Positions 20,210 to 60,894 of a DNA stretch of 64,000 bases are shown piece by piece. Origin of the DNA: Chaetoderma sp. LZ-2023a (lineage: Eukaryota > Mollusca > Caudofoveata > Chaetodermatida > Chaetodermatidae); the NCBI GenBank assembly GCA_034401795.1, contig CM067366.1, positions 67,540,014-67,604,013 on the forward strand, given 5' to 3'. The position numbers and the translations under genes were made by a program. The notes beneath the pieces were generated by a model. It was not told where the DNA came from, ran no database searches, and saw only the letters and a list, made by a program, of their open reading frames with translations. Numbering within the stretch: position 1 is the stretch's first letter; every line of letters starts with the position of its first letter.

Positions 20210-20572
20210 ACATAAGACGGTAGAACACCTCAATCAGAAGATGCCTACCATCATCTCTCGAGGCCAGAGCAAGTGACCATTTTTCGTCTCAGAACTGGAC
20301 ACAACAGACTAAACCAACACATGTACAGGCGGTTCCACCTTACGACATCGCCCGCTTGTCCTTGTGGAGAAGCAGAACAGACCACAGAGCACATACTTCA
20401 ATGTTGCAGTATGTATCAGCTGCTGAGAGAAGAGATCTGGCCTTTGTCAACCTCTATTCTTGAAAAGCTGTATGGGCCTGTGGAAGAACTGCAGAAAACC
20501 ACAGATTTCATCTTGAGAACGGCTCTCCAAGTGTGATACCAGCGATCGAAAAGAAGAAGACATAAGACGGTA
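20210..20572 (+). mobile_element. Short retroposed unit with 13-bp target duplication
   Basis: The insert 20223-20559 is flanked by ACATAAGACGGTA at 20210-20222 and 20560-20572. Its 3' end is a GAAAAGAAGAAG tail, so it shows the marks of target-primed reverse transcription. The content is the C-terminal end of a non-LTR polyprotein. A second copy with nearly the same 5' start is at 56832-57161 on the other strand. Confidence 0.85.
20273..20536 (+). CDS. C-terminal fragment of non-LTR polyprotein
   Basis: An intact frame of 87 residues begins MTIFRLRTGHNRLNQH, carries SPACPCGEAEQTTEHILQCC and ends at DFILRTALQV. The LRTGH block and the C-x-C-G...H...C motif are those found after the RNase H or RT region of non-LTR retrotransposons, probably a nucleic-acid-binding knuckle. 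No RT is encoded, so alone it is not an active enzyme; the frame also opens further upstream to about 20225. Whether the small protein is ever made is unknown, but the related copy at 56862 keeps the same frame despite a nine-base in-frame deletion. Confidence 0.7.
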   Translation: MTIFRLRTGHNRLNQHMYRRFHLTTSPACPCGEAEQTTEHILQCCSMYQLLREEIWPLSTSILEKLYGPVEELQKTTDFILRTALQV

Positions 20573-20749
20573 ACGAGGGAATCCATCGGAAATCCCCCGT
20601 CCCATCTTCATGTAAAACACTACGCACCCCTATAGTCATAATATCATTAGGTATGGTCTTTTCTCTCTAAAGCATTTTTGATTGAAATATTAGTGGGCCC
20701 ATTTTTGCCTACTATTCTTATCCCGCTTTAAGCAGTGGCGACACCTTCC

Positions 20750-35811: not shown

Positions 35812-36031
35812 ACGCTTTAATGATCAAAAGCCGGCCTCTGTAGTGATCTTGAGGAATATCCATTTACAAGCAAGACAAGAAGCCTACTTTTGAAAGTTTA
35901 CCACTGGAATGACTGGCTCGGTTATCGATCCAGTCATTCCAGTGGTAAATTTTCTAAAATAGTCTTGGCCTGCAAAAGGACATTTAGTACGAACAATTTT
36001 TGGGGACAAATATTGACAATTAAAGGGTTAA
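35812..36031. repeat. Family A palindromic MITE at exon 1 donor
   Basis: Runs CGCTTTAATGATC to AATTAAAGGGTTAA and ends only 11 bases from the donor of the zinc-finger exon, so it occupies the very start of intron 1. It also supplies the 35 spurious codons that would follow if the intron were read through. Confidence 0.85.
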
Positions 36032-36041
36032 TTTCACATAC

Positions 36042-39000
36042 CTTGCCAATGTGCTCCAGTAGTTGTTTCTTTCGCTTGAAAGTCTCCTTGCACAGATCAC
36101 ACTGGTACGGAGACAACTTCTTATGAACAAGCTGGATGTGAGACATCAAATTTGATTTATTATTGAATGTGCGCCCACAATCGCCACACTTATGAGGCTT
36201 TTCACCAGTGTGGATCAACATATGCCGATCGACATGGTACTTCTTAGTAAATCGTTTTTCACACACCGAGCAAATGAAGATCTTTTGATTTGGAGATTTC
36301 CAGCCCTCGTGTACACGCTTTGTGTGGCCAATAAGAGCGCCAAGTGTTTTGAAAGCTGAGTTGCATACACTACATAGATATTGCCGGCTGTGCAAATGCA
36401 TCCCTTTAATATGTGTGTTAAGATTTCCCCGGAACGCAGAACTATAATCGCAGTGTGGACATTGATAAGGACGTCGACCAGAATGCACAGTACGCATATG
36501 TGAGCTCATGCCAGTTTTAAGGACGACTTTTTGACAGATGGGGCACGGTATCTGTAGGCGATTGACCTGATGTGATTCTAAATGGCGCTTCATATGCTTT
36601 GTAATTCTGCCACATTGCTGACACTGATCACCTTCTTCATTGCAACCTGTCGCCGATACTTTCATGATGCGTTCACGCCAGCGTGCATTACGCATTTCTT
36701 CCTCATAGTCAGGTTCATGCCTATGCTTTGCTTTGATATGCTTCACCAGAAGAACAAAGGCTTTATCACAGAACGGGCATTTTAATGCTTCTTCTGCACT
36801 ACGTTTTCGTCTCCTTATTTCTGCGTCATCAAAAAGTCCAAGCTCACCCTTCTTCTTACGCTTTCTATATTCATTAGCGAAATCTTCAGGATCATCTTTC
36901 ACAGCTATATCCTCCTGACCCAATGGAGCAAACTTCTTTTTCTTCAAACGAGGATCAGTTTGTGTCTGCACCGACCGCCTGCCTTCCCATTCACCAACAA
37001 TCTCAACTTCAACAAATGGCGGTGGTGGTAGAGTAGGCAGAAGTGGTGTCTGTGTGCCATCAAATGTTACCATTGTTGGTTTTACGCCATCATCAGGTGA
37101 CTGAAAGTCAGACATACTTTCTGCAGCCTTTTGAGGTGTAGAAAATTCTCCATGCTGCTGCTTGTGTTGAGCTTTGTCAGATGTGAGACGATCATCATCA
37201 ATCATATCAATGCTGTAAATATCACACGCTTGAGATGGTTGCTCATTAGTATCCACTTTGGTCAATTTAGAGGACTGTACCGGTGCTGAATTCTCAGTGA
37301 TTTTCAGTGGAGATGATGAAACAACAACATTCTCAACACTGGCTATCTTTTTCTCAGTGACCTCTTGCAGTTGAACAGACTCTGCAAATGATACTCTTGC
37401 CCGCTTGCGTGTGACGTATCCTGGACCTTCATCATGTGATGTGGTAGCAAGTTTCTCAGAACTATCCAAGCCGGTGTCAGCACTAACAATGCTTTCCGTC
37501 TTTCTCTTAGTTCCTTTAACTGGTGTTGAAAACGACTCATATAAATCTTCATCAAATTCAAAAGTTGACTGCCTTTCTAAAAGAACTTGTCTTTCATTAG
37601 CATCTATCTCTGCTTCCAGTTTTGCACTTCTATCTTGAGAGGTACCTGATGTGTCTTGCATTGCTGCAACCCGACCACGAGTATTGCGCTTCTTCGGACT
37701 AGGAGTTATAGAAATACTGAATTCTCCCTCATCATCTATTTCTTGAACAGTTCCTTTTGCAGCCTGCCTCTTTGATGTTGCCTTATCTACAGCGCTGGCT
37801 TTTGAACCACGGTTTACTGCATGCCACTCTACTTCATCGCCTCCACCTTTTTCATTTTTAGCTCGTGTAGGGCGCCCTCTACGCCTTGGTGTTGTTATAG
37901 CCTCAGCCACAACATCCTCTAGCTCAGCATTGTCATCTCCTACAGATTGCTGAATATTTTCTGATCTTTTGGGTCTTCCTCTGCCCTTCTTTATCGTGAA
38001 TACTCGCTGTATGTCGTCTTCATAATTATCAGCAGCAGCGCCTTTGTTAGATTTCTCACCATCAGCCTGTCTTTTTCGTCTGCCAGAGGGTTTATTATTA
38101 GCATCTAAAGTGTCATTTGCCTTTTCTTTCTCGGGCTCAATCTTTGCTGCTCTTCCTCTCCTGGGGCTAGATAATGCACTGCTTCCCAAACTCTTTGCAT
38201 CTTTTTTTTTTGGAGATGGGGTTGCATTTTTCTTCTGGGAATGTTCAGGTTCGATTACAGGTGGGTCATTAGACTCTGCTACTACCTTTGTTCGTCTGCC
38301 TCGTCTCGGTGTCTCATTCACTACTTTCTTTGGCAATGCAGGTGCAGATGCCGCCACTGTCTCCTTAGTCAGTACAGGTGGAGCTTCCAAGTCATCTTGT
38401 TCGATATCATCTCCTGCATTTTCATCGCTGTCTATAGCTTTACCATTCGCATCCGATTCCATATCACCATTTTCTGTCATCATAGCTGAATCAATAACGC
38501 TTGCCTGGTCAGTAGCATCAGTTGGCTGTTCATCTGTTATGTCCACCATTGTTGCATTTGGTTCCGTTGATGTTCCAGTTGAATACATGTCCTTCTCATT
38601 CATAATGTCTACAGAATGCTCTATCTCTTGTGCTAATTGTTGGCTGGTGCTGTCATCTATAAGTTCTGGAATATCATCGACTTCTCCATTCTCTTTCACA
38701 CTGTTAGCATTATTTTCTGGCACAAGATCTGGAGGGGGTACACTCTCTCCTCGTTGACTTCCACTAACATCAGCTACCTCTTCAAGTACTGGCATTCCGG
38801 TTTCAACTCCTACTATTGCCTTGAGATCATTCTCTGCGATTGCTACACCTTCACCTAGTACTTCACTAGGCAGCTCTTGTGTTTCCTCCTGAACATCCGA
38901 TGCAAGCATCTGTCCATTGGTTTCATCTGCTGCAATAATTTCTTCAGCATCCATATACTCTACACCCTCTTCTGCAATTTCTTCTGAACCATCATTTGCT

Positions 39001-39110
39001 TCGAGTGACATTCCATCCTTGGAGATGACAATTCGCTGACCATCTGGGGTAATAAGACTACCATCTGCCAACTGTTGAACAACAAGTTCCTGATCTTCGC
39101 CTGTATCCAT
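36042..39110 (-). CDS. Zinc-finger/AT-hook protein, coding exon 1 (residues 1-1023)
   Basis: The first 250 residues are acidic, starting MDTGEDQELVVQQLADGS. Four AT-hooks follow at about residues 268-274 (PRRGRRTK), 316-323 (PRRGRAAK), 374-382 (KKGRGRPKR) and 408-416 (PRRRGRPTR). A low-complexity, basic/acidic linker leads to C2H2 fingers at about 778-796, 830-847, 856-876, 884-905, 913-934, 947-967, 975-996 and 1004 onward. Finger 6 is joined to 7 by the classic HTGEKPHKC linker; fingers 1 and 2 are short and atypical. The exon ends at a donor AAG/GTATGT after LEHIGK, leaving finger 8 without its second histidine. AT-hooks bind the minor groove of AT-rich DNA and C2H2 arrays read specific sites; both inferences rest on motif families. 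Reading on past the donor runs into a MITE. Confidence 0.9.
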
Positions 39111-39169
39111 TGTCTATCTACAAATAGAAAAGAGCAAATGCTGGCCTGAATATTTCTGTAAACAAAGGG

Positions 39170-45280: not shown

Positions 45281-46039
45281 TCATTTCAAAACAGCTAAAG
45301 CGAGTGGATTGGCTGAGTCTGACATATCCCTCATATAGTAATCCGTGAATGAGGACTCACAATGCCATTGTGCAACGGCCATGATGTCCTCTAACGGAAC
45401 ACCATTGTAAAGGGCGGTTGAGGCGGCTATTCCTCTAACATCGTGTGCTCTTATGCATTGCACCTTGTGCCCATACGCCATCTCATGGGTAGTCTGAATG
45501 CATTCGACTACCCAATGAGAGATAGAATCCATGGATGCGGCGCCATATGGCTTCTTATGGCAGATCCACAGATGTCTATCATTCGACCATAACGAGTCTG
45601 TCCGTTTTCTGTACTGGACCGGGCACCAGACACTGGCATCACGATCAAACCTTGTTAGTTTTGGTATAATGATCGGTTTGCCGGGATATCTCAAAGATTG
45701 ATTCTTTGACATAAACTCTGCTCTTGGCAGAAGACGCAGACCCTCTCCGGAGACAATAAATCGGTCCCTCTCTGCTGAAAGTGCATGGATCTCACTGCAC
45801 CTTCTAGCTGAGGAAGCTTCCAATAGAAAGACCGCCTTTAGAGTCAAATGCTTTAGACTAGCCGAACGCAACGGTTCGAAAGGGTGCTTGGCCAGTACAT
45901 TAAGCACTAAAGATAGACTCCAGGCTGGAATGACTACCGGTTGTCTCGGTCGGAGATTGCTCATTCCCTTCACAATCACATTTAACTGGGCCACCTCTGG
46001 ACTATCCCTGTTGGCTAGACAAGGGATAACTGATGCCAA
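45281..46039 (-). CDS. Tyrosine recombinase catalytic domain (DIRS)
   Basis: 252 residues. The catalytic set of the tyrosine recombinase/integrase fold is present: Arg in SSARRCSEIHALS, the H-x-x-R in RAHDVRGIAAS, the conserved WHCESSFTD and the nucleophile region DYYMRD. This enzyme would cut and rejoin DNA through a phosphotyrosine link to integrate the circular DNA copy. The frame starts inside the gene: upstream coding (about 46045-46110, blocks such as ANFLCELFFSRL) is in another frame, so an indel separates this from the N-terminal half. The related fragment at 8041-8526 has lost the tyrosines. Confidence 0.9.
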   Translation of the reverse strand: MASVIPCLANRDSPEVAQLNVIVKGMSNLRPRQPVVIPAWSLSLVLNVLAKHPFEPLRSASLKHLTLKAVFLLEASSARRCSEIHALSAERDRFIVSGEGLRLLPRAEFMSKNQSLRYPGKPIIIPKLTRFDRDASVWCPVQYRKRTDSLWSNDRHLWICHKKPYGAASMDSISHWVVECIQTTHEMAYGHKVQCIRAHDVRGIAASTALYNGVPLEDIMAVAQWHCESSFTDYYMRDMSDSANPLALAVLK

Positions 46040-46107
46040 AGCTGACTTGTATCCAGCAATTGTGACGGGAGCTAGTCGTGAAAAGAACAGCTCACAGAGA
46101 AAGTTTG

Positions 46108-46629
46108 CTATTTGCTGAATAGTGGATTGAAAGGTATCAATACCCTTTTCTTCACACCAGTCTGCAAATCTGTTAACCTTGTTGTTATATGACTTGAAGG
46201 TTGACCGCCTTCTCGCAGCTGCGATGAAATCTGCAGCTTGTCAAGAAAAGCCTTCCGACGTGGAACGTTGTTTGATAACATCCACGCAGTCAATTTGAAC
46301 ATTTCGGGACGCTCGTGTAGGAAGCGTCCCTTGGCCTGGGAGATTATGTTCGGAATCTCGGGTAACTGCACTGGGTTTTCCACCAGCAGATCTAGAAGTT
46401 CCATGAACCACACCCTGCTGGGCCAAAACGGCGCTATTAGCAGGACCAGGCACGGTTCCTCCCTGATCTTCACCAATACCTTCGGTAGAAGAATGGTGGG
46501 TGGGTACGCGTAAGCGTGCATCCCTCTCCAGGTTATCGCCAGAGCGTCTGTATCGACGGCATTTGGATCTGGAATCGGCGAGACATAAGTCATGATTTGA
46601 GCATTTCCCCTTGTGGCGAACAAGTCCAC
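46108..46629 (-). pseudogene. RNase H tail and recombinase N-terminal region (DIRS)
   Basis: Starts at DLFATRGNAQIMTYVS, the 'DLFAT' block that in DIRS and related elements follows RNase H, continues ITWRGMHAYAYPP and PFWPSRVWFMELL, then enters the recombinase N-terminal region. It is in the same frame as the RNase H segment above, separated from it by a single TGA at about 46660. A frameshift near 46160 diverts it, giving the spurious end at 46108. Inactive as it stands. Confidence 0.75.
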
Positions 46630-46659
46630 GTTGGGTTTGCCCCAATGCTCGAAGATCCT

Positions 46660-47189
46660 TCATAGAGCTGGAGGGTTGAGGGACCATTCTGTTGGCAGAA
46701 TTCTCTGTCTGAGAGACAATGCATCCACCAGAATGTTCAATCGGCCAGGAATGTGAGCTGCTTTCAAAACAACCGAGTAATTCCTGCACCATTGAATCAA
46801 GTGCCACACTTTGATACACAGTGTGGGTGACTTGGTCCCGCCTTGGCGATTCATGTATGATACTACCATCAAATTGTCCGACCGTATCAATATCACCTTG
46901 CCCCTGATCATTGGAAGAAATTCTTCCAATGCCAGTTCCACTGCCATCATTTCCAACAGATTGATATGCAGCTGGCTCTCCTGGAGAGTCCATGTGCCCG
47001 AGACCTGGTGTTCTCCCAGGCAGGCCCCCCCCTACCCTCCAGCGATGCATCCGTGTACACAGAGAGCTGGGGGTGGGGTAGGTGCAGCGAAACCCCTACT
47101 TCTGATGCTTTTTCCACCATACAAGATGCGACATTATTGGCTCCAAAACTGGCACCAGTTTTGACAGGGGTTCTGTTCTCTGTTTCCAC
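46660..47189 (-). pseudogene. RNase H domain (DIRS), frameshifted
   Basis: The first acidic block SVYTDASLEG is at about 47050-47080. ELALEEF, RSDNLMVVSYMNRQGG and HIPGRLNILVDALS (46690-46950) supply the other carboxylates, so all four catalytic positions (D, E, D, D) are visible. A frame change falls in a run of eight G (minus strand) near 47025. Another separates the domain from RT near 47098, where RT ends with TAG. RNase H would remove the RNA template during cDNA synthesis. Confidence 0.85.
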
Positions 47190-48196
47190 AGAGACATCAG
47201 ATACAACTGGATAGGTCTCCGCATCAGAGCAGCGTACGGGATAACCTGCTCCGTGGAGACCATCATGCCCAGCATCTGAAGAAACCGCATCGCCTGAATG
47301 TGGTTTCCCAATCGAAAACTCTTGAGGATGGCTAACAGAGACACCACTCTGGGCTCTGACGGGTAAACCCTGCCCTCCTCGAGACCGAATCTCATCCCTA
47401 AATAAACGAAATGTTGAGTGGGTGTCAACTCGGATTTCTCCTTGTTGACTATCCAGCCTAGATCTGAAAGTAACTTCAGAGTCAGGTCAGTATCCGCCTC
47501 TAACCTGCCTGCCGTGTCTGCCTTGATCAGCCAATCGTCTATGTAGCTGTGTAGCACCACGTTCTCTTTTCTGAGAAACGCTGTCACCGCAAGGACCACT
47601 CTTGTGAAAACCCTTGGAGCTGTCGACAGGCCGAATGGGAGGACAATAAACTCCCATACTTGATTCTGAAACGCAAATCTCAGAAACCTGTGACAACTCC
47701 TGTTCATTAGAATGTGGAAATATGCATCTTTCAGATCGATCGACACGCACCACATTCCCTTCCTCAATCCTGCCATTACCGACCTCGGCGTATGGATAAA
47801 CCAATTTAATGGCTTGAGATTGAGTATGGGTCTCCATCTCCCTGTGCTCTTGGGAACAAGGAACATATTTGAATAGAAGCCTGGAGTGTTCTGGTTTGCT
47901 GGTTTTATTGCTCCCTTCAGAAGCAAACCTGACACTTCGTTCTGAATGGCTTCTAACTTGTATGGTTCCCTTGGTACGGGTGTCCAGACAGGTGCCAAAG
48001 ACAGATTCTGTGGTGGAAAGTCCCACAACTCCGGCATGTATCCCTGGGATAACCATTCCTGGACCAGACTGTCTGACGTCACACCTCGCCAAGCCTCAAC
48101 GAAACGCATGAGCCTTCCACCCACTATAGACGCCTCATGGGTTGTCCGGCTCGCAGTCCGCTCCCCCCCCTCTCTTAACGAGAGAGAGAGAACCAT
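47096..48196 (-). CDS. Reverse transcriptase (DIRS)
   Basis: 366 uninterrupted residues covering the polymerase. Motifs run in order: WRPILNLKPLN, SIDLKDAYFHI (first catalytic Asp), LPFGLSTAPRVFT, HSYIDDWLI (catalytic DD in a YIDD box), VNKEKSELTPTQ and FVYLGM. The 'LPFGLSTAPR' plus YIDDWLI combination, followed by RNase H and a tyrosine recombinase rather than an integrase, is typical of DIRS-group elements. It would copy element RNA into DNA. The start at 48196 overlaps the region after gag (stop at 48218); true initiation may use a frameshift or internal start. This is the best-preserved protein of the element. Confidence 0.92.
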   Translation of the reverse strand: MVLSLSLREGGERTASRTTHEASIVGGRLMRFVEAWRGVTSDSLVQEWLSQGYMPELWDFPPQNLSLAPVWTPVPREPYKLEAIQNEVSGLLLKGAIKPANQNTPGFYSNMFLVPKSTGRWRPILNLKPLNWFIHTPRSVMAGLRKGMWCVSIDLKDAYFHILMNRSCHRFLRFAFQNQVWEFIVLPFGLSTAPRVFTRVVLAVTAFLRKENVVLHSYIDDWLIKADTAGRLEADTDLTLKLLSDLGWIVNKEKSELTPTQHFVYLGMRFGLEEGRVYPSEPRVVSLLAILKSFRLGNHIQAMRFLQMLGMMVSTEQVIPYAALMRRPIQLYLMSLWKQRTEPLSKLVPVLEPIMSHLVWWKKHQK

Positions 48197-48217
48197 TTCG
48201 GTCTTGGCTCAGCTGGT

Positions 48218-49689
48218 CTAACTGGCACCGCCGTTTCTGTCACACAGGTGCGGTCCAGGCGGATACTTTCCGCCCTTTGAGGACTTATCCTTCCCCTTCC
48301 CATTCCCGCCTCTAGGGCGATCAGGAGCAACATTGGGGAGGGTAGGGGCCTCCACAACCTTCCTGGCTTTCTTCGGCGGCGGCTGAGAAGCAGCAGCCGC
48401 ACTAGACTTAGCTTTCGCCTTGCCTTTATACTTCTTCTGCTTCTTGGAAGGTTGCACGGTCAGCGGCTTCCCTACAGCCCCTAGTGCGTGCGCTTTCCGC
48501 ACCAGCTCTAGCTGTAGGTTCACCGCCAACCAATTCTGTGCAATGCTAGCCGTGTCCTCTAAGATGGCCCGCGCCTGGCCACCGAAGATGCTAGGGCCTG
48601 TCAGGGGCGTCCCAAGAAGACGCTCCCTGACGGCCGTAGCCGGACGCATATGGTCAAGAACCATTTGCCTCCTGGACTTCGTAACACGCGCCTGCACCCT
48701 TGCCAGTGCGTCCATAGACAGCACCAGGCCATCATTGACGCACGAAAGCGCCACAGGTGGCCTGCCCCCGCTTCAGCCCACACCGACTGAAGAAGGCGAT
48801 AAGAATGGTTGACAGCACTCATGGCTGCCCTCACACCCTCATCGCAAAGGGACAGGACTTCCTCGTGGTGTCCCTGGGATTTGTCCACCAGTGGCGGGGC
48901 GGGGCCACCCGCTCCAGCACTGTGGACACCCAGAACCCATCGGTCATCCTCGGTAACCGACGGTACAATACCATACCTGTCGTATTCCCCCCGTGGAATA
49001 CGACACCTCACCCGCACCTCCCTGGAGGCCGCAGGGCGCTGGCCCTTGGTCATGAGTTGCTTACTATAAATAGCCTCTAGCAACTCAATAAACCGTGGAT
49101 CCAGTCCAATGGACGGAATCGACCTCCATATTCTCCACCCGTGGCATCACAGGCCGCAGCAACCTCTCCTCCCCGGCCTCCTCATCTTCAGACCCCGAAG
49201 AGTCGTCACTAGATGAGGAAAGCGTGGAGCCGTCCTGGCGGACGGCTCCCATGCCTGACGGACGGCTCCCATGCCTGACGGACCGGCCACCGCTACTGGA
49301 CCACTCGGAGGTGGCCGCAGAGAGACAGAACCCGTCAGGCCAGAGCCCGACGGGACTGCCAGGGGGCCGTACGAGACGGCTCCCTCGGCGACCAGTCCAG
49401 AACCCCGTCCAAGGACAGGGTCCGAACCAAGCATGGGGAGAGACTGCCCAACAACTTTCGGCAGCAGGGACGACACCAGCGTCAGCAGAACGCTATGCAG
49501 AAAGCCCTGCATAGCCGGACCAAACCACGCCGGCGGTGCCATCTCCGCCACCTCCAGCTGAAGACGTGGAGCGCCCCCAAGGGCCGAAACGGACGCTCCA
49601 CGATTTAATTTCGGTCCGCCTGACCTCGCGTCAGACCCAGCCAAGTCCTTCTGGGCAAGGAACTTCATTATCATATCAACGGACCACAC
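48218..49689 (-). pseudogene. Gag-like protein (DIRS), three frame breaks
   Basis: Successive pieces in different frames: 49689-49281 (proline/glycine-rich), 49240-49105 with a strongly acidic SSSSDDSSGSEDEEAGEE block, 49083-48765 (FIELLEAIYSKQLM to YRLLQSVWAEAGA) and 48754-48218. The last ends in a lysine-rich tail (KKQKKYKGKAKAK, PPPKKARK, GGNGKGKDKSSKGG), probably the RNA-binding end. A direct 20-base tandem duplication at 49241-49280 causes the first shift; single-base changes near 49110 and 48760 cause the others. Such proteins package element RNA. Confidence 0.7.
49241..49280. repeat. 20-bp tandem duplication in gag
   Basis: GACGGCTCCCATGCCTGACG occurs twice back to back with no mismatch. 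Twenty is not a multiple of three, so it breaks the gag frame. Confidence 0.95.
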
Positions 49690-50727
49690 TGCACATATAT
49701 TACACCTATTGTCAAGGTTACATAACGTACACCGAAAGCAGACATGGGCCTTAAACAGGACCCGGACGAACTTGTGGCACTCATCACATGATGGCGGGGC
49801 TGGCTTGGCCTATAAATAAGCACAAACCTACAATAAGCAAGCGGAACGAGACAAAGATGGAAGGCAGACTTCAAATATATTGACCATAAATTAACTGCAA
49901 CCCTCCCGCACCCCACCCCGCAACGTTACAGCAAAGATCGCATTGATTATGACGACAAGAACGAAGCGGGCATAAATACACCCATAAACTGATCCTCAAG
50001 GATGTATCACGGAACCAGGAATCATATCGCATAGCATTCGGGGTATATTTACCAATAAATATAAATTATACTCCTAGCGAAAGCCAAAACGATATGTGAA
50101 GAAACAACAAAATGAAACAAACTGCTGTAGCACACGGTAAAACCGCAGGCCACACATCTTATTCAAGAATTTTGAAACCACCGATCATTGCAAACAGATC
50201 GTGATAACACACAAAACTTGAAATTCCAAAGTTTTCTGGTACCATTTTAGTACGCAGCACCTAGAATAAGATGCGCGAATTAATGAAAAATTTTCTTCAC
50301 ATAAACATCCGAGCAACACAGGTGTGACGTCACCCGCTCGGATCTTACGGAGAACGACGTCAGCCGATATTCGTGTTAAAAATACCGTAGCAAACACCTA
50401 TTTTCATATCTGCCGATCGCCTGTTGGGGTTTAAAGAAGGCGATCATCCTGCATATTTCGTTGTTAACACACGTCCCATCTTCTTAGGGGTTAGAAATTG
50501 GAACATGCGACACAGACACAATTTTAGAGACCTAAGTCTTTTAACTATGGAATAATAAGGAAATATACAACCTGGTTATCATCGGCGGTATCCATATTAA
50601 TCCAAATATCCTTGTAGAAACGCACTAGCTATCACAATAAACCACAGACAAAAAGACTTAGATTTAATTTCTCAAGATCTTTCCAACTGCAAAAGCATGT
50701 ATTTCTCTTGTTGCTATGCAAACAAGA
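49690..50727 (-). other. DIRS 5' untranslated region
   Basis: About 1 kb between the left inverted repeat and the gag frame. No coding sequence or named promoter motif is convincing. Confidence 0.5.
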
Positions 50728-54994: not shown

Positions 54995-55590
54995 TATAAT
55001 AGATGAGCTCCCCCCCCCCCCATCCCTCTCCCACCCTCCATCCCTTTATGTTCATGAATGTAATTGTCCTGTTTTACTGTTGTATCCTACATGCATGTAC
55101 CTACTGTTCATATAGTATCACGTAATATATTTTTGTTTATGTTACATCCTATTATATATGTCATAATATATTTTGCAATTATTGTTTATATTTTAGGATT
55201 CCACCACTTCATAGGCTTGCCTTTGGTGGACTGCCTGTTGTAATCTCTGATACTGACGACTAAATACGAAAATAAATAATCTTTAATCTTGAATCTTAAC
55301 TGTATAGTGGGATCCATTTCTATAGCTATATCCGCCCATTTCTAGCCAAACTCTCCCCACTTTTTCCGCATTTAGGAATCAATTTATATATTTTGAATCC
55401 TGAATACACAAAATCTTGATAAGTCTGTAAATATTGTTCATGATAGATGTATATCTGCAATTTATGGTCTGAAACGTCACATAACACAGACGAGATTACG
55501 GGACTAATAACATACGTACATGTACATCTAGACAGTGTTTAAATATAATTATAGTCCTAGACGTACACTTAGTAGAAGACAATTTACAAT
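53905..55590. other. Non-coding, microsatellite-bearing
   Basis: No gene is supported. A plus frame at 54770-55006 only reads through the ATA microsatellite (54947-54994). A poly-C run lies at 55010-55020. Confidence 0.5.
54947..54994. repeat. (ATA)n microsatellite
   Basis: About sixteen uninterrupted ATA units. Confidence 0.95.
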
Positions 55591-55593
55591 AGG

Positions 55594-56015
55594 GCCATTC
55601 CGTATTAAATCACCCAATAAAAATATGATTCTAAACCTCACCATCTCCAATTTACTTCAAAATTGGTTTACTTGGTTTTTGGCCAGAAAATCCAAAATCT
55701 CAAGTTTGAGCTCAATCGGACAAACGGTTCCTGAGATATGGCCCATTGATTTCTTAACAATTTTGACCAAAATGGGTATGGTTACCAAACTACAAATAGC
55801 CATAACTCCTGACCAAATGGTCCAATCTTAACAAACAAAGTATCATAAGAAAGGGGAAATACACGAGGATTCAAAATCTGCCATGATTTTAACCATTTGG
55901 GTGACTCTGGGGGTGATGACCTTTTGACATAAATTTTGACCTTAAAATTGACCTTGTGGATCACGTGACCGTGAGATCACAAATGATGTAAATTACAGCC
56001 TGGTATGATACCTAC
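55594..56015 (+). repeat. Transposon terminal inverted repeat, left
   Basis: Its counterpart is 58983-59365. The right copy lacks about 35 bases around GACCTTTTGACATAAATTTTG. Confidence 0.85.
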
Positions 56016-56320
56016 AATATATATATAAAAAACTAGAGGTGTATTATTTTTTGTCTGTCAGTAATATCAAGTTAAAATATGTACACACCTGCTGCTGATG
56101 ACTCAAGACTCTATCTAAAATGCACTGATTTCAGGCATGTAGCACCAGAACATGCGCACATATCCATCGAGTACTATTAACGTTTAAATAGGCAGCTTAC
56201 ATGTATTGACTCGTATCACCTATTAAGACTATTCATAATCAAACTCCCAGTTTGGACACACTTTAGAAATTTGGACTAGGTCATTTTGACAGAAAGTTTA
56301 TTTCCTTGATGAGGATAATG

Positions 56321-58736
56321 TCAGTGATGGGGTGTTGAAGACACAATGAATATCCTATCCACTTGTGATGGCCAGTGAAATTGTCTCGATGGTCCATTTG
56401 GATGCACAAAATTGATATGATAATCGTCATACTCCTCTGATACTTCCTCTACCATACCTATCCATGGCAGATCATCATACATGCAACAAACAAAGTTCTC
56501 ATCCGTTATTTCCAGGAGAATCTGCAACAAACCCCCAACATTTGAACCTAACACATCAGCATCAGTGATTTGGACTTCTTCAGGAGTAGACTGTGCACTC
56601 AGTTTGAAGACTTCCAGCGTTGATTGTGAAACGGGGACAAAACAATGGGAATTCTGGGTGCCTTTCACAGTTTTGGCAGACTTGAATCTCATCTGCAGTT
56701 GCTCTTAACAAGCATCAACATAATCCTGCTTTACATGAAGGAAATGTATACCGGGTGTATTCTTCAAGGTTGTCTTTAGTTACAAGTCTCTTGACTGTGC
56801 CACCAATGCCACCACAAGCACTTTTACCATGTCTTCTTCTTCTTCTTTTCGATCGCTGGTGTCACACTTGGAGAGCCGTTCTCAAGATGAAATCTGTGGT
56901 TTTCAGCAGTTCTTCCACAGGCCCATACAGCTTTTCAAGAAAAGAGGTTGACAAAGGCCAGATCTCTTCTCTCAGCAGCTGATGTGTACTGCAACATTGA
57001 AGTATGTGCTCTGTGATCTGTTCTGCTTCTCCACAAGGACAAGCGGGCGATGCCGTAAGGTGGAACATGTGTTGGTTTAGTCTGTTATGTCCAGTTCTGA
57101 GACGAAAAATGGTCACTTGCTCTGGCCTTGAGAGATGATGGCAGGTATCTTCTGATTGAGGACTTTTACCATGTGAGGTGGCAAAAAAGTTCCATTCACT
57201 GTCGAATTCAAAGTCTTCTTTGTGGTAGCATAAGTTGATGAAGTTATTCCTGTTTTTATATTGGCCTCTGCAGCCATCTCTGAAGTAATGAATTTTCTCA
57301 ACTTTGGGTAATATAGATTTTATGTAGGCAATGGTATCTTTCAGGAATGCATAAATAGTCACGGCGGTGTGAACTTTGCCGTCACTTATAACACACATAT
57401 GTTAATGTGCTCAAGGCTTCCATCAACCAAACGATAGTATGCCACAAAGTGGTGGAGAGTCGCTTGCACACTTTCCCAATGAAGGTTTGGATTTTATCTT
57501 GTACTACAAATTAATAATTTTTGGCAAAGTCACCTTGTAAAATTATTACTTTCCTTGATGTCACAGAGGATTTCAGATTTCATGTAAGCACCTTGGGACC
57601 GTGCAGTAAAACTGTGGTGTGTTAATTAAAAAATTTGATTTAGCTAGTCATCCTTTGATTCTACATCTGTCACTAGTTTGGTATGATCAGCACAAACCCA
57701 TTGTTGATATGTCACCTCGTCCACATCGGCTAAATCATCACATTGATGCAAAAAACCGACAATGCCCTAAAGGTCTGGGCAGGTGTTGCACTGCCCCATC
57801 ATACACGTTTCATTCTCAGTAGAACATACACAGTGGGACATAAGATCATGGACATTTACACTTAAACAGGAATCCACCATATGCTTTGGGTTCTGGTGGT
57901 ACTTGCAAACACAGACTGAGTGGGTGCCCGATGTCCCTGTTAAAACACACCATTTTGGTTGAAGAACTGTAAACGAAGAGGAACCGACCTTTTTATCTGG
58001 ATTTGCTTCATTCCACACTACATGCAGTTAATTTAAATTGCACAATACTAACCGCTTCTAATGTTCTTCTTTTTCCCCATCCTTATTACGGATATTGACT
58101 TTTCCCAATTTCTCGGACACATATGACTGTTCTCATCTGTTTGATAAAATTCACTATTTCATCTTTAAGTTCCATGGGCATGGATTTTCCCTTGTTTTTA
58201 TTGCATTGTCCTAATATTCCTTTCTCCTTTTTGATAGCACAGCTTTTCTTCACAAGATAGTTGGATGCTCCGAATTCATTCATTGTCCGTTCTATAGAGA
58301 CGGGCGAGACGGTCATTATTTGGACACGTAGAATGTTTGAATTTATCTTTTAACTCTTCCAGCATAGTACTGTGTAATTGTAAATTCTGCATGCACATTT
58401 ATGTCTATAAGTGAAGTGTTCTTTTCAGGTGAAGTACATATAACACTTATAGCCAGGTCGTTCGGTGCATCATTTTCAGACAAACTGACTTGCATTGTGT
58501 GATCCACTGGTCTCAACAGTCCGAGTTACTTGTACAAAAGTTGTTCTTGCTTTTATTAGGCAGATACAACACAGTTGTTCACCTGGTATCACATTAGGTA
58601 GTGGACTAACTAATGTGTCATAGACACTTAGTGTCAGGATTCGCAGTGATTTTGTCCTAGGTTTGATAGCCTGAGTATCAAAAGGATCACAACATTTTCT
58701 CTTATGGAAAGAACCTTTTAAGTAGCTCTTGCTCAT
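56321..58736 (-). pseudogene. Putative transposase of uncharacterised animal family, broken
   Basis: Pieces in order on the minus strand: 58736-58476 with KRKCCDPF and PGEQLCCICLIKA; 58316-58086 with ERTMNEFGASNYLVKKS and EKGILGQCNKNKGK; 58018-57767 with PKWCVLTGTSGTHSVCVC and CVCSTENETCMMGQCNTCP; 57500-57174 with MCVISDGKVHT, IHYFRDGCRGQYKNRNNF and WNFFATSHGK; 56831-56321 with GGIGGTVKR and MYDDLPWIGMVEEVSEEYDD then HPNGPSRQFHWP. Cys-rich segments look like zinc sites. The two SDG/RDG aspartates could belong to an RNase H-like DDE-type core. I recall similar unnamed proteins in many invertebrate genomes (memory, unverified). Frameshifts and stops join the pieces, and a retroposed unit splits the HGK codon region. 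Confidence 0.65.
56820..57173 (-). mobile_element. Second short retroposed unit, 12-bp target duplication
   Basis: Insert 56832-57161 flanked by ACTTTTACCATG at 56820-56831 and 57162-57173. Minus orientation: starts CCTCAATCAGAAGATACC, ends in GAAAAGAAGAAGAAGA. Removing it would restore continuity between the two parts of the host gene. Its frame keeps FRLRTGHNRLNQH, SPACPCGEAEQITEH and DFILRTALQV, with a nine-base in-frame deletion relative to the 20-kb copy. Confidence 0.9.
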
Positions 58737-58982
58737 GGTGACAACAAATTGCCTTAATATCTAAAAAATCAGGGAAAGCTGATCAGGATTTCTTTTGTTT
58801 AACTTCTGTAAGCATGCTGTATCGATATCTAATTAGTGGACCACCACTTCCTGTCCAGGGAGGCTAAAGTCAATTTCAGAAACCTCACACAAACAAGCTG
58901 AATTTGTAGCACCAGCAAATTGTAGTTCAAACATAGAACTCAGCGATATTACTGAAAAACAAAAAATAGTAAACCTTTTGGA

Positions 58983-59365
58983 GGGAACTTACCAGGCTGT
59001 AACTTACACCATTTGTGATCTCAAGGTCACATGATCCACAAGGTCATCCCTAGAATCACACAAATGGTTTAAAACATGTCTGATTTGAAATCCTTGTGTA
59101 TTTCCCTTTCTTATGCTACTTTGTTTGTCAAGATTGGCCCATTTGGTCAGGAGGTATGGCCATTTGTATTTTGGCAACCACGCTCCTTTTGGTCAAAATT
59201 GTTAAGAAATCAATGGCCCATATCTCGAAAAACCGTTCATCCGATTGAGCTAAAACTTGGGATTTTAGCTTTTTTCAGCCAAAACAAACATATAAACAAA
59301 TTTTTAAGTAAATATGGAGATGGTGAGGTTTAGCCCATTGGGTGACTTGACATGGAATGACCAAT
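58983..59365 (-). repeat. Transposon terminal inverted repeat, right
   Basis: Inverse of 55594-56015. The gene's start codon at 58736 is about 250 bases inside it, so the repeat probably carries the promoter. Confidence 0.85.
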
Positions 59366-59408
59366 TAAAATATTTACAGTGGATAGGGAAAGTGCTCATC
59401 TTGCTTCA

Positions 59409-59996: not shown

Positions 59997-60887
59997 TTAA
60001 TAGATTACTTTTGTAGTGATTTTAGTTGTTTTTTTTTGTTTACTATCATATGTGTTAGTCCAGATAGCGTTACAATATGTGATATTAGGGAGTATCAGTG
60101 TGCTGTATAGAGTTTTTATAATGTCAGATGTTAGATATGGTCTGCGTATGATACCGATGCTTCTTACTACTTTTGACTTAACAGTTTCAATATGCTTTTC
60201 CCATGTCAAATTTGTGTCCAAATATACTCCAAGAAACTTTGCATGTTGAGCTTCATGTATTATCTGATTGTTTATAACAAGATTTGGAAGCACAGTTTCT
60301 TTTAATTTCTTACTTTTCGTGAATAATATATAATTTCTTTTGTCCACATTTAGCGATAGTTTGTTGGCTTTAAACCAGTCTATGATTTGTTGCATTTCAC
60401 GGTTTACATTTTTATATAGTGTTTTCATATCTTTGTGGCTGCAGAAAGCATTTGTGTCATCTGCAAATAATATTAGTGATAGGTGGTTACAGACATTGGG
60501 TAGCTCATTCATATACAGTAGAATTAACAGGGGCCCAAGAATTTAACCTTTAGTGGCGCCGCAGATTACATCTTTATTTGTTGAAGTGGCCCCAGAGAAC
60601 TGTACATATTGTACTCTTTTTAACAAGTAGTCGTGTATCCAGTTCAATGGGATGCCTCTGATACCATAATAGGAGAGTTTATTTAATAGTATAGTATGGT
60701 CGATGGTGTCAAAAGCCTTGGAAAGGTCCAGAAATATACCTAACATATGCTCATTATTCTGCAGGGAATCAGTTATTTTTTCAATCATGTCCACAATGGC
60801 ATGCATGGTAGAATGTTTTTCTCTGAAGCCATACTGAGATGTGTATATAATTGAGTGTTTATTAAGAAATGTAATTATCTCTACCAC
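59997..60887 (-). pseudogene. Non-LTR retrotransposon RT, 5'-truncated
   Basis: Minus strand: [32 protein letters not shown] (first catalytic Asp), then GATKG, a stop, ILGPLLILLYMNELPN, LILFADDTNAFC (catalytic FADD) and FLGVYLDTNLTWEKHI. This order is the non-LTR RT palm and thumb. One in-frame stop (60541-60543) at the 'PQG.ILGPLLF' position is the only interruption seen, so the copy is fairly young. No endonuclease is found: the element is cut at about 60890, where an opposed element begins. Confidence 0.85.
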
Positions 60888-60894
60888 TTTGTAT

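Follow-up and report, generated by a model that had tools for sequence, protein, structure and literature searches.

The window analyzed here, a stretch of 64,000 nucleotides from Chaetoderma sp. LZ-2023a (GCA_034401795.1, contig CM067366.1; genome of 2.44 Gb in 2753 contigs), contains a decayed DNA transposon at positions 55592–59363 (3772 bp), with borders set by 15 two-ended relatives. The joint explanation of the results is that this element likely moved by cut-and-paste, probably encoded a DDD transposase and most probably belonged to the Sola superfamily; to this explanation as a whole we assign a probability of roughly 0.8. That the family is a mobile DNA transposon with a gene of its own is almost certain and is established at the level of sequence. 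Membership of Sola, judged by likeness to the published description, is probable. The transposase, predicted to have a DDD, RNase H-like core, would use its Cys/His modules to bind the terminal inverted repeats (TIRs), cleave the element at its GGG ends and insert these ends into target DNA cut with a 4-bp stagger. Element ends, an insertion signature and candidate catalytic residues can now be given for genes that form a very abundant family unnamed in Pfam, and annotators could name such genes transposases instead of uncharacterized proteins.

Limits of the element and its inverted repeats

The left TIR (55592–56017, plus strand; about 426 bp) begins with GGGCCATTCC, where most relatives carry GGGTCATTCC, and the right TIR (58978–59363, minus strand; about 386 bp) ends with GGAATGACCA, where relatives carry GGAATGACCC or AGAATGACCC. 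Both arms were located by BLAST and global alignment, and their borders were taken from the 15 two-ended relatives. The two arms were 78% identical over 392 columns by BLAST (E 2e-91), while global alignment gave 325 identical bases out of 379 aligned in 430 columns, with 27 transitions and 27 transversions. The two inverted repeats of about 400 bp described in the original prediction are accordingly real, and the extent that it gave, 55594–59365, was a near-match whose limits were shifted to the present ones by the two-ended relatives. No further copy of the TIR was detected elsewhere in the window by BLAST, and a 26-mer pattern derived from both ends matched only those two ends within the window at up to 3 mismatches.

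The element is flanked by a decayed 4-bp target-site duplication, AATA on the left (55588–55591) and ATTA on the right (59364–59367), the two copies agreeing at 3 of 4 bases and the length of 4 bp being fixed from the relatives. An 8-bp duplication had the top score when the window copy was considered alone. This score was equalled by 22 of 500 random flank pairs, and the longer duplication was rejected given the 4 bp seen in relatives.

Copies of the family in the same genome

Searching the genome with the left TIR resulted in at least 41 matches, with 40 of 120 candidates scored. Twenty stretches were taken from chosen TIR matches, and as 10 of these were picked for two facing matches lying close together, the two-ended share is not that of a random sample. 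Both arms were present in 17 of the 20 stretches and both termini in 15, aligned at or no more than 3 bases from the termini. The remaining stretches, outside the two-ended count, had one arm (L065, L067 and L069), a second arm without its terminus (L066) or a second arm aligned from base 6 (L071). A core protein match lay between the arms in 12 of the 15 two-ended copies, among the matches listed; the three copies without one among those matches were a 641-bp miniature (L062) and two copies of roughly 2.4 kb each (L063 and L064).

The element termini read 5'-GGGTCATTCC...GGAATGACCC-3', L056, L057 and L068 deviating from this at single bases. An exact 4-bp target-site duplication was observed in 12 of the 15 two-ended copies. 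L063 and L064 have identical flanks in opposite orientation and therefore represent one insertion that was duplicated, which leaves 11 of 14 independent insertions with an exact duplication. The original prediction of a DNA transposon with the TIRs as its ends had named a TIR search of the genome and derivation of the target-site duplication as checks, and it was borne out by both, as well as by the presence of the core between the arms. Its expectation of multi-copy homologues also agreed with what was found in this genome, where some homologues have long, intronless open frames and carry the same TIRs where both ends were examined. The opposing picture, that homologues would be single-copy, intron-containing and free of TIRs, or that the gene had entered a different element by chance, did not hold when examined in this single genome.

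Related subfamilies and an empty site

The core protein gave 2023 candidates in the genome, of which 150 were scored, and the matches fell into identity groups near 80%, 63–70% and 49–61%; 13 of the matches listed lay in open frames of at least 800 aa. A divergent copy used as query gave 2109 candidates, again with 150 scored. Two other subfamilies, with about 55% and 64% core identity, were found to hold the gene between TIRs with GGGTCATTCC-type termini. A tree of 17 cores resolved two main groups, each with support of 100/99, while 9 of 14 inner branches stayed open.

In the second subfamily, both two-ended elements (3031 and 3055 bp) had exact duplications, AGCT and GGCT, and the other loci showed a single end within the stretch examined. 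Elements of the third subfamily span 4830–4832 bp, with TIRs that align over 736 columns and intronless frames of 860–866 codons. Their termini are GGGTCATTCC, with one end of L073 reading GGGACATTCC. Compared with L073, L074 is 99.4% identical and L075 98.7%; L073 and L074 have exact duplications, TACT and CACT, and that of L075 is not exact. In ten further copies, both ends were sampled. Five of these had a right end that could be located, all 5 with an exact duplication, and in the other 5 it was altered or not found at the expected place, giving 7 of 8 exact 4-bp duplications for this subfamily overall. A 727-bp TIR query returned 230 candidates, and the 40 that were scored were all 98–100% identical. 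This subfamily has multiplied recently, and its near-identical copies with long open frames suggest that it was recently active. Across the three subfamilies, 20 independent exact duplications showed no evident consensus.

An empty-site query was made by joining the flanks of L073 directly, leaving out the element and keeping a single copy of the duplication. The joined flanks matched across the junction, at 90–91% identity, in all 40 places scored out of 4422 candidates, meaning that L073 inserted in a repeat whose empty form is common. Four empty sites were fetched and all were gapless at the junction. As read from the DNA, mobility is demonstrated by the empty site. The four sites have TGCC at the junction where the joined flanks have TACT; this difference, and the inexact duplication in 3 of the 15 window-family copies, are observations that count against the joint explanation. 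By eye, the open reading frames of the repeat that hosts L073 look like those of a DIRS-type retrotransposon.

The broken transposase gene

The transposase gene of the window copy lies on the minus strand at 56321–58795, with an approximate upper limit, as judged by comparison with relatives, and a degraded N-terminus. Pieces of one protein are found there in changing frames, and a frame-path estimate for 57162–58738 pointed to some 6 stop codons and 8 frame shifts. The score of this upstream part was reached by none of 200 shuffles, whereas that of the short downstream part was equalled by 54 of 200 (42 of 200 with stricter penalties). The upstream score was also reached by 72 of 320 other stretches of the window, true genes among them, and by itself the frame-path test is weak support for a gene. 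The broken gene was accepted as real because relatives match its core: the pieced core of the window was 77–83% identical to other genomic copies in the best group. The intronless, broken gene of about 2.4 kb in the original prediction thus stands as far as its pieces are concerned, with the exception of 56833–57161, which is a LINE insertion.

The start codon predicted for this gene was not supported by comparison with six related copies. At the position of the ATG at 58734–58736, 5 of the 6 relatives have ICCHHEQELL or a close variant of it in the frame that leads into the motif KRKCCDPF, and this frame continues open beyond that point in the upstream direction; L058, the remaining relative, gave no match to a KRKCCDPF-type motif. 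The ATG is out of the frame of the relatives and is probably not the start.

Conserved residues and protein modules

Conservation was evaluated in three alignments, A1 (11 rows), A2 (17 of 40 matched loci) and A3 (10 rows), whose members were picked for open frames and diversity and are in some cases partial. The Asp of the motif DFAENY was conserved in 15 of 17 sequences in A2 (Tyr in L081, gap in L032) and in all 10 in A3, that of DG in 17 of 17 and 10 of 10, and those of QD and CDG in all 17 sequences of A2. The Asp of SD was present in 16 of 17 in A2 (Gly in L032) and replaced by Asn in L025 of A1. The likeliest catalytic triad comprises the Asp residues of DFAENY, DG (within [ST]DG..xQYKN) and CDG (within HGKSxCDG), which in L073 are separated by 83 and 40 residues. 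These were preferred since a hydrophobic stretch precedes each of them, in keeping with the strands of a DDE/D core.

In the window copy, the candidate first catalytic Asp lies in GDFAKNY at 57529–57531 and the candidate second in RDGCRGQYKNR at 57276–57278, both on the minus strand. The candidate third site, HGKSACDGIGG in relatives, is at 56811–56813 on the same strand, where the window reads SACGG and hence has Gly. Conservation does not pick the triad, as at least five Asp residues are conserved and two of them, in QD and SD, are outside the preferred set. The SD and RDG residues named in the original prediction were indeed both conserved across the core sequences, and its list was incomplete in that the Asp of DFAENY had been missed. 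The SD residue may also be catalytic, being conserved to the same degree as that of DFAENY, and conservation does not decide the matter.

Upstream of the core is a Cys/His-rich module, PKWCV...HSVCVCKYHQN...C...C..C (57767–58027, minus strand). Nine of its Cys/His positions were conserved either in every one of the 10 rows of A3 or in 9 of them, with a gap in the remaining row, and the module is probably zinc-binding. The C-terminal part, YDxxPWIG...FHWP (56321–56704, minus strand), is similar in relatives and gave no match in Pfam. Its pattern, YDxxWxG...FMxPxGPxxxFxWP, possibly denotes a Tudor or SH3-like barrel, as judged by eye from the pattern alone. Structure predictions were run on two single, broken sequences from the window and were of low confidence (mean pLDDT 52 and 35), neither yielding a confident model of an RNase H-like core.

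Superfamily placement

Searches of Pfam, NCBIfam, PHROGs and the solved structures of the PDB resulted in no convincing match for the window protein or its relatives. The Hermes DNA-binding domain of Pfam was hit below threshold in 1 of 17 cores (E 0.05), and other weak matches were scattered below the cut-offs. No relative was found in viral contigs searched by protein, alignment and patterns, where 13 loci from one scan were discarded as none looked related by translation or tblastn, nor in genome contigs searched by protein and by pattern, where the one pattern match was judged to be due to chance. Phage records gave 3 weak matches only, with E of 2 or more. A search of one bacterial genome and 299 genomes of its phylum gave no match; as Sola is reported from bacteria, this counts against that placement, but as a weak negative that had no positive control. 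Nothing on this transposon family was retrieved from the literature searched, whether by protein motifs, TIR sequences or related wording. Proteins with these motifs are presumably multi-copy in cnidarians and arthropods.

The founding paper on Sola, by Bao et al. in 2009, is said to distinguish three groups that differ in target preference. In a published description (PMC10741241), Sola elements have a DDD transposase, 4-bp target-site duplications, a length of mostly 2–9 kb and TIRs of 11–1124 bp, and their hosts include bacteria and animals. The present family resembles these elements in its exact 4-bp duplications, seen in 12 of 15, 7 of 8 and 2 of 2 copies of the three subfamilies, in its TIRs of 386–736 bp and in its elements of 3.0–4.8 kb. 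The animal host is likewise shared with that description, and the conserved Asp residues make a DDD transposase plausible. The open frame of about 860 codons is similar in length to the 888-aa transposase of a Sola2-type element from amoebozoans (PMC3627910). The AT-rich AWWT pattern given for the duplications of amoebozoan Sola2 elements, which need not define all of Sola2, fits 1 of the 20 independent exact duplications here, namely ATAT. The family had originally been called uncharacterized. This is true of Pfam, where nothing convincing was found, but the layout of the element agrees with what has been published on Sola; for that reason a new kind of transposon was not shown.

Among the alternatives, a superfamily outside all catalogued ones, characterized by Cys/His modules followed by a DDD core and a barrel-like domain, 4-bp duplications and GGGTCATTCC termini, is unlikely, though likelier than the others. 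Relatives with long frames lack a convincing Pfam match, six motif strings of the protein were absent from the 5.39 million papers searched, and the target duplications have no evident consensus, unlike AWWT. However, the duplications, TIRs and elements all have lengths inside the description of Sola in PMC10741241, Pfam may simply contain no model for Sola, and strings of this kind are rarely printed in papers. If the family did constitute a new superfamily, many nameless multi-copy genes of animals would be explained as transposases. PMC9587614 lists 20 superfamilies with DDD/E transposases and describes Kolobok elements as having 5'-RR...YY-3' termini and a TTAA duplication. Termini of the 5'-RR...YY-3' kind are also seen in this family, whereas the TTAA duplication of Kolobok and piggyBac was found in none of the 20 independent exact duplications.

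An early leaning towards a Mutator-like element was based on the TIRs, which at hundreds of bases, together with zinc fingers, are typical of that group (PMC6446971). It was dropped because the duplication is 4 bp in three subfamilies, where 8–11 bp is given for Mutator-like elements in the same source. No match to the corresponding Pfam model was obtained, and the C/DxxH signature of MuDR and its kin, as given in PMC9587614, is by eye absent at the conserved CxH of the family, making this placement very improbable. Even less credence can be given to the capture of a host gene by an unrelated non-autonomous element with these TIRs, or to its insertion into one. Such an event would be in keeping with the window alone, which has a single pair of TIRs, but is at odds with the core lying between the TIRs in 12 of 15 two-ended copies, among the matches listed, and with the two other subfamilies that hold the gene between termini of the same type.

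A LINE nested in the gene

The window copy of the transposon reads as dead on account of its broken frames, the change of one conserved Asp to Gly and the insertion of a LINE. The latter is a 5'-truncated 3' fragment that carries a (GAA)n tail and lies inside the transposase gene at 56833–57161 on the minus strand. It accounts for more than half of a 179-aa open reading frame. The fragment is bounded by a 13-bp direct repeat, ACATGGTAAAAGT, with the upstream copy of this target-site duplication at 57162–57174 and the downstream copy at 56820–56832 (both minus strand). In L054 and further relatives of the transposon, the LINE is absent and the alignment runs straight through the site. A 92% identical copy of the LINE is present elsewhere in the window at 20219–20573 and has a 13-bp flanking repeat of its own, ACATAAGACGGTA.

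Relatives of the transposon in the same genome

Short derivatives of the transposon exist, as a miniature element of 641 bp with the same ends as the window transposon family was found in another stretch of the genome (L062, positions 232–872), where it is flanked by an exact target-site duplication, TATA. One transposon insertion was found twice on contig C14, in two stretches (L063 and L064) separated by ~1 Mb. Since the same insertion and the same flanks are shared in opposite orientations, this indicates an inverted segmental duplication later than the insertion.

Other elements in the window

The LINE 3' fragment nested inside the transposase gene (56833–57161) and a second one at 20219–20573 are 92% identical. 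Their start points differ by at most about 5 bp; each is accompanied by a 13-bp duplication and ends in a tail rich in GAA. Both may originate from a short LINE-derived family rather than from random truncation. Pieces of a non-LTR reverse transcriptase (59997–60893), matching Pfam RVT_1 within 60543–60893, lie beside the transposon. RVT_1 was also matched within 47096–48208 of a DIRS-like retrotransposon (45281–49809), in which weak phage-integrase N-terminal matches, under the Pfam cut-off, fall within 45281–46240. An open frame of 1059 codons on the minus strand (35934–39113), with several C2H2 zinc fingers, looks like a gene of the host or a long exon.
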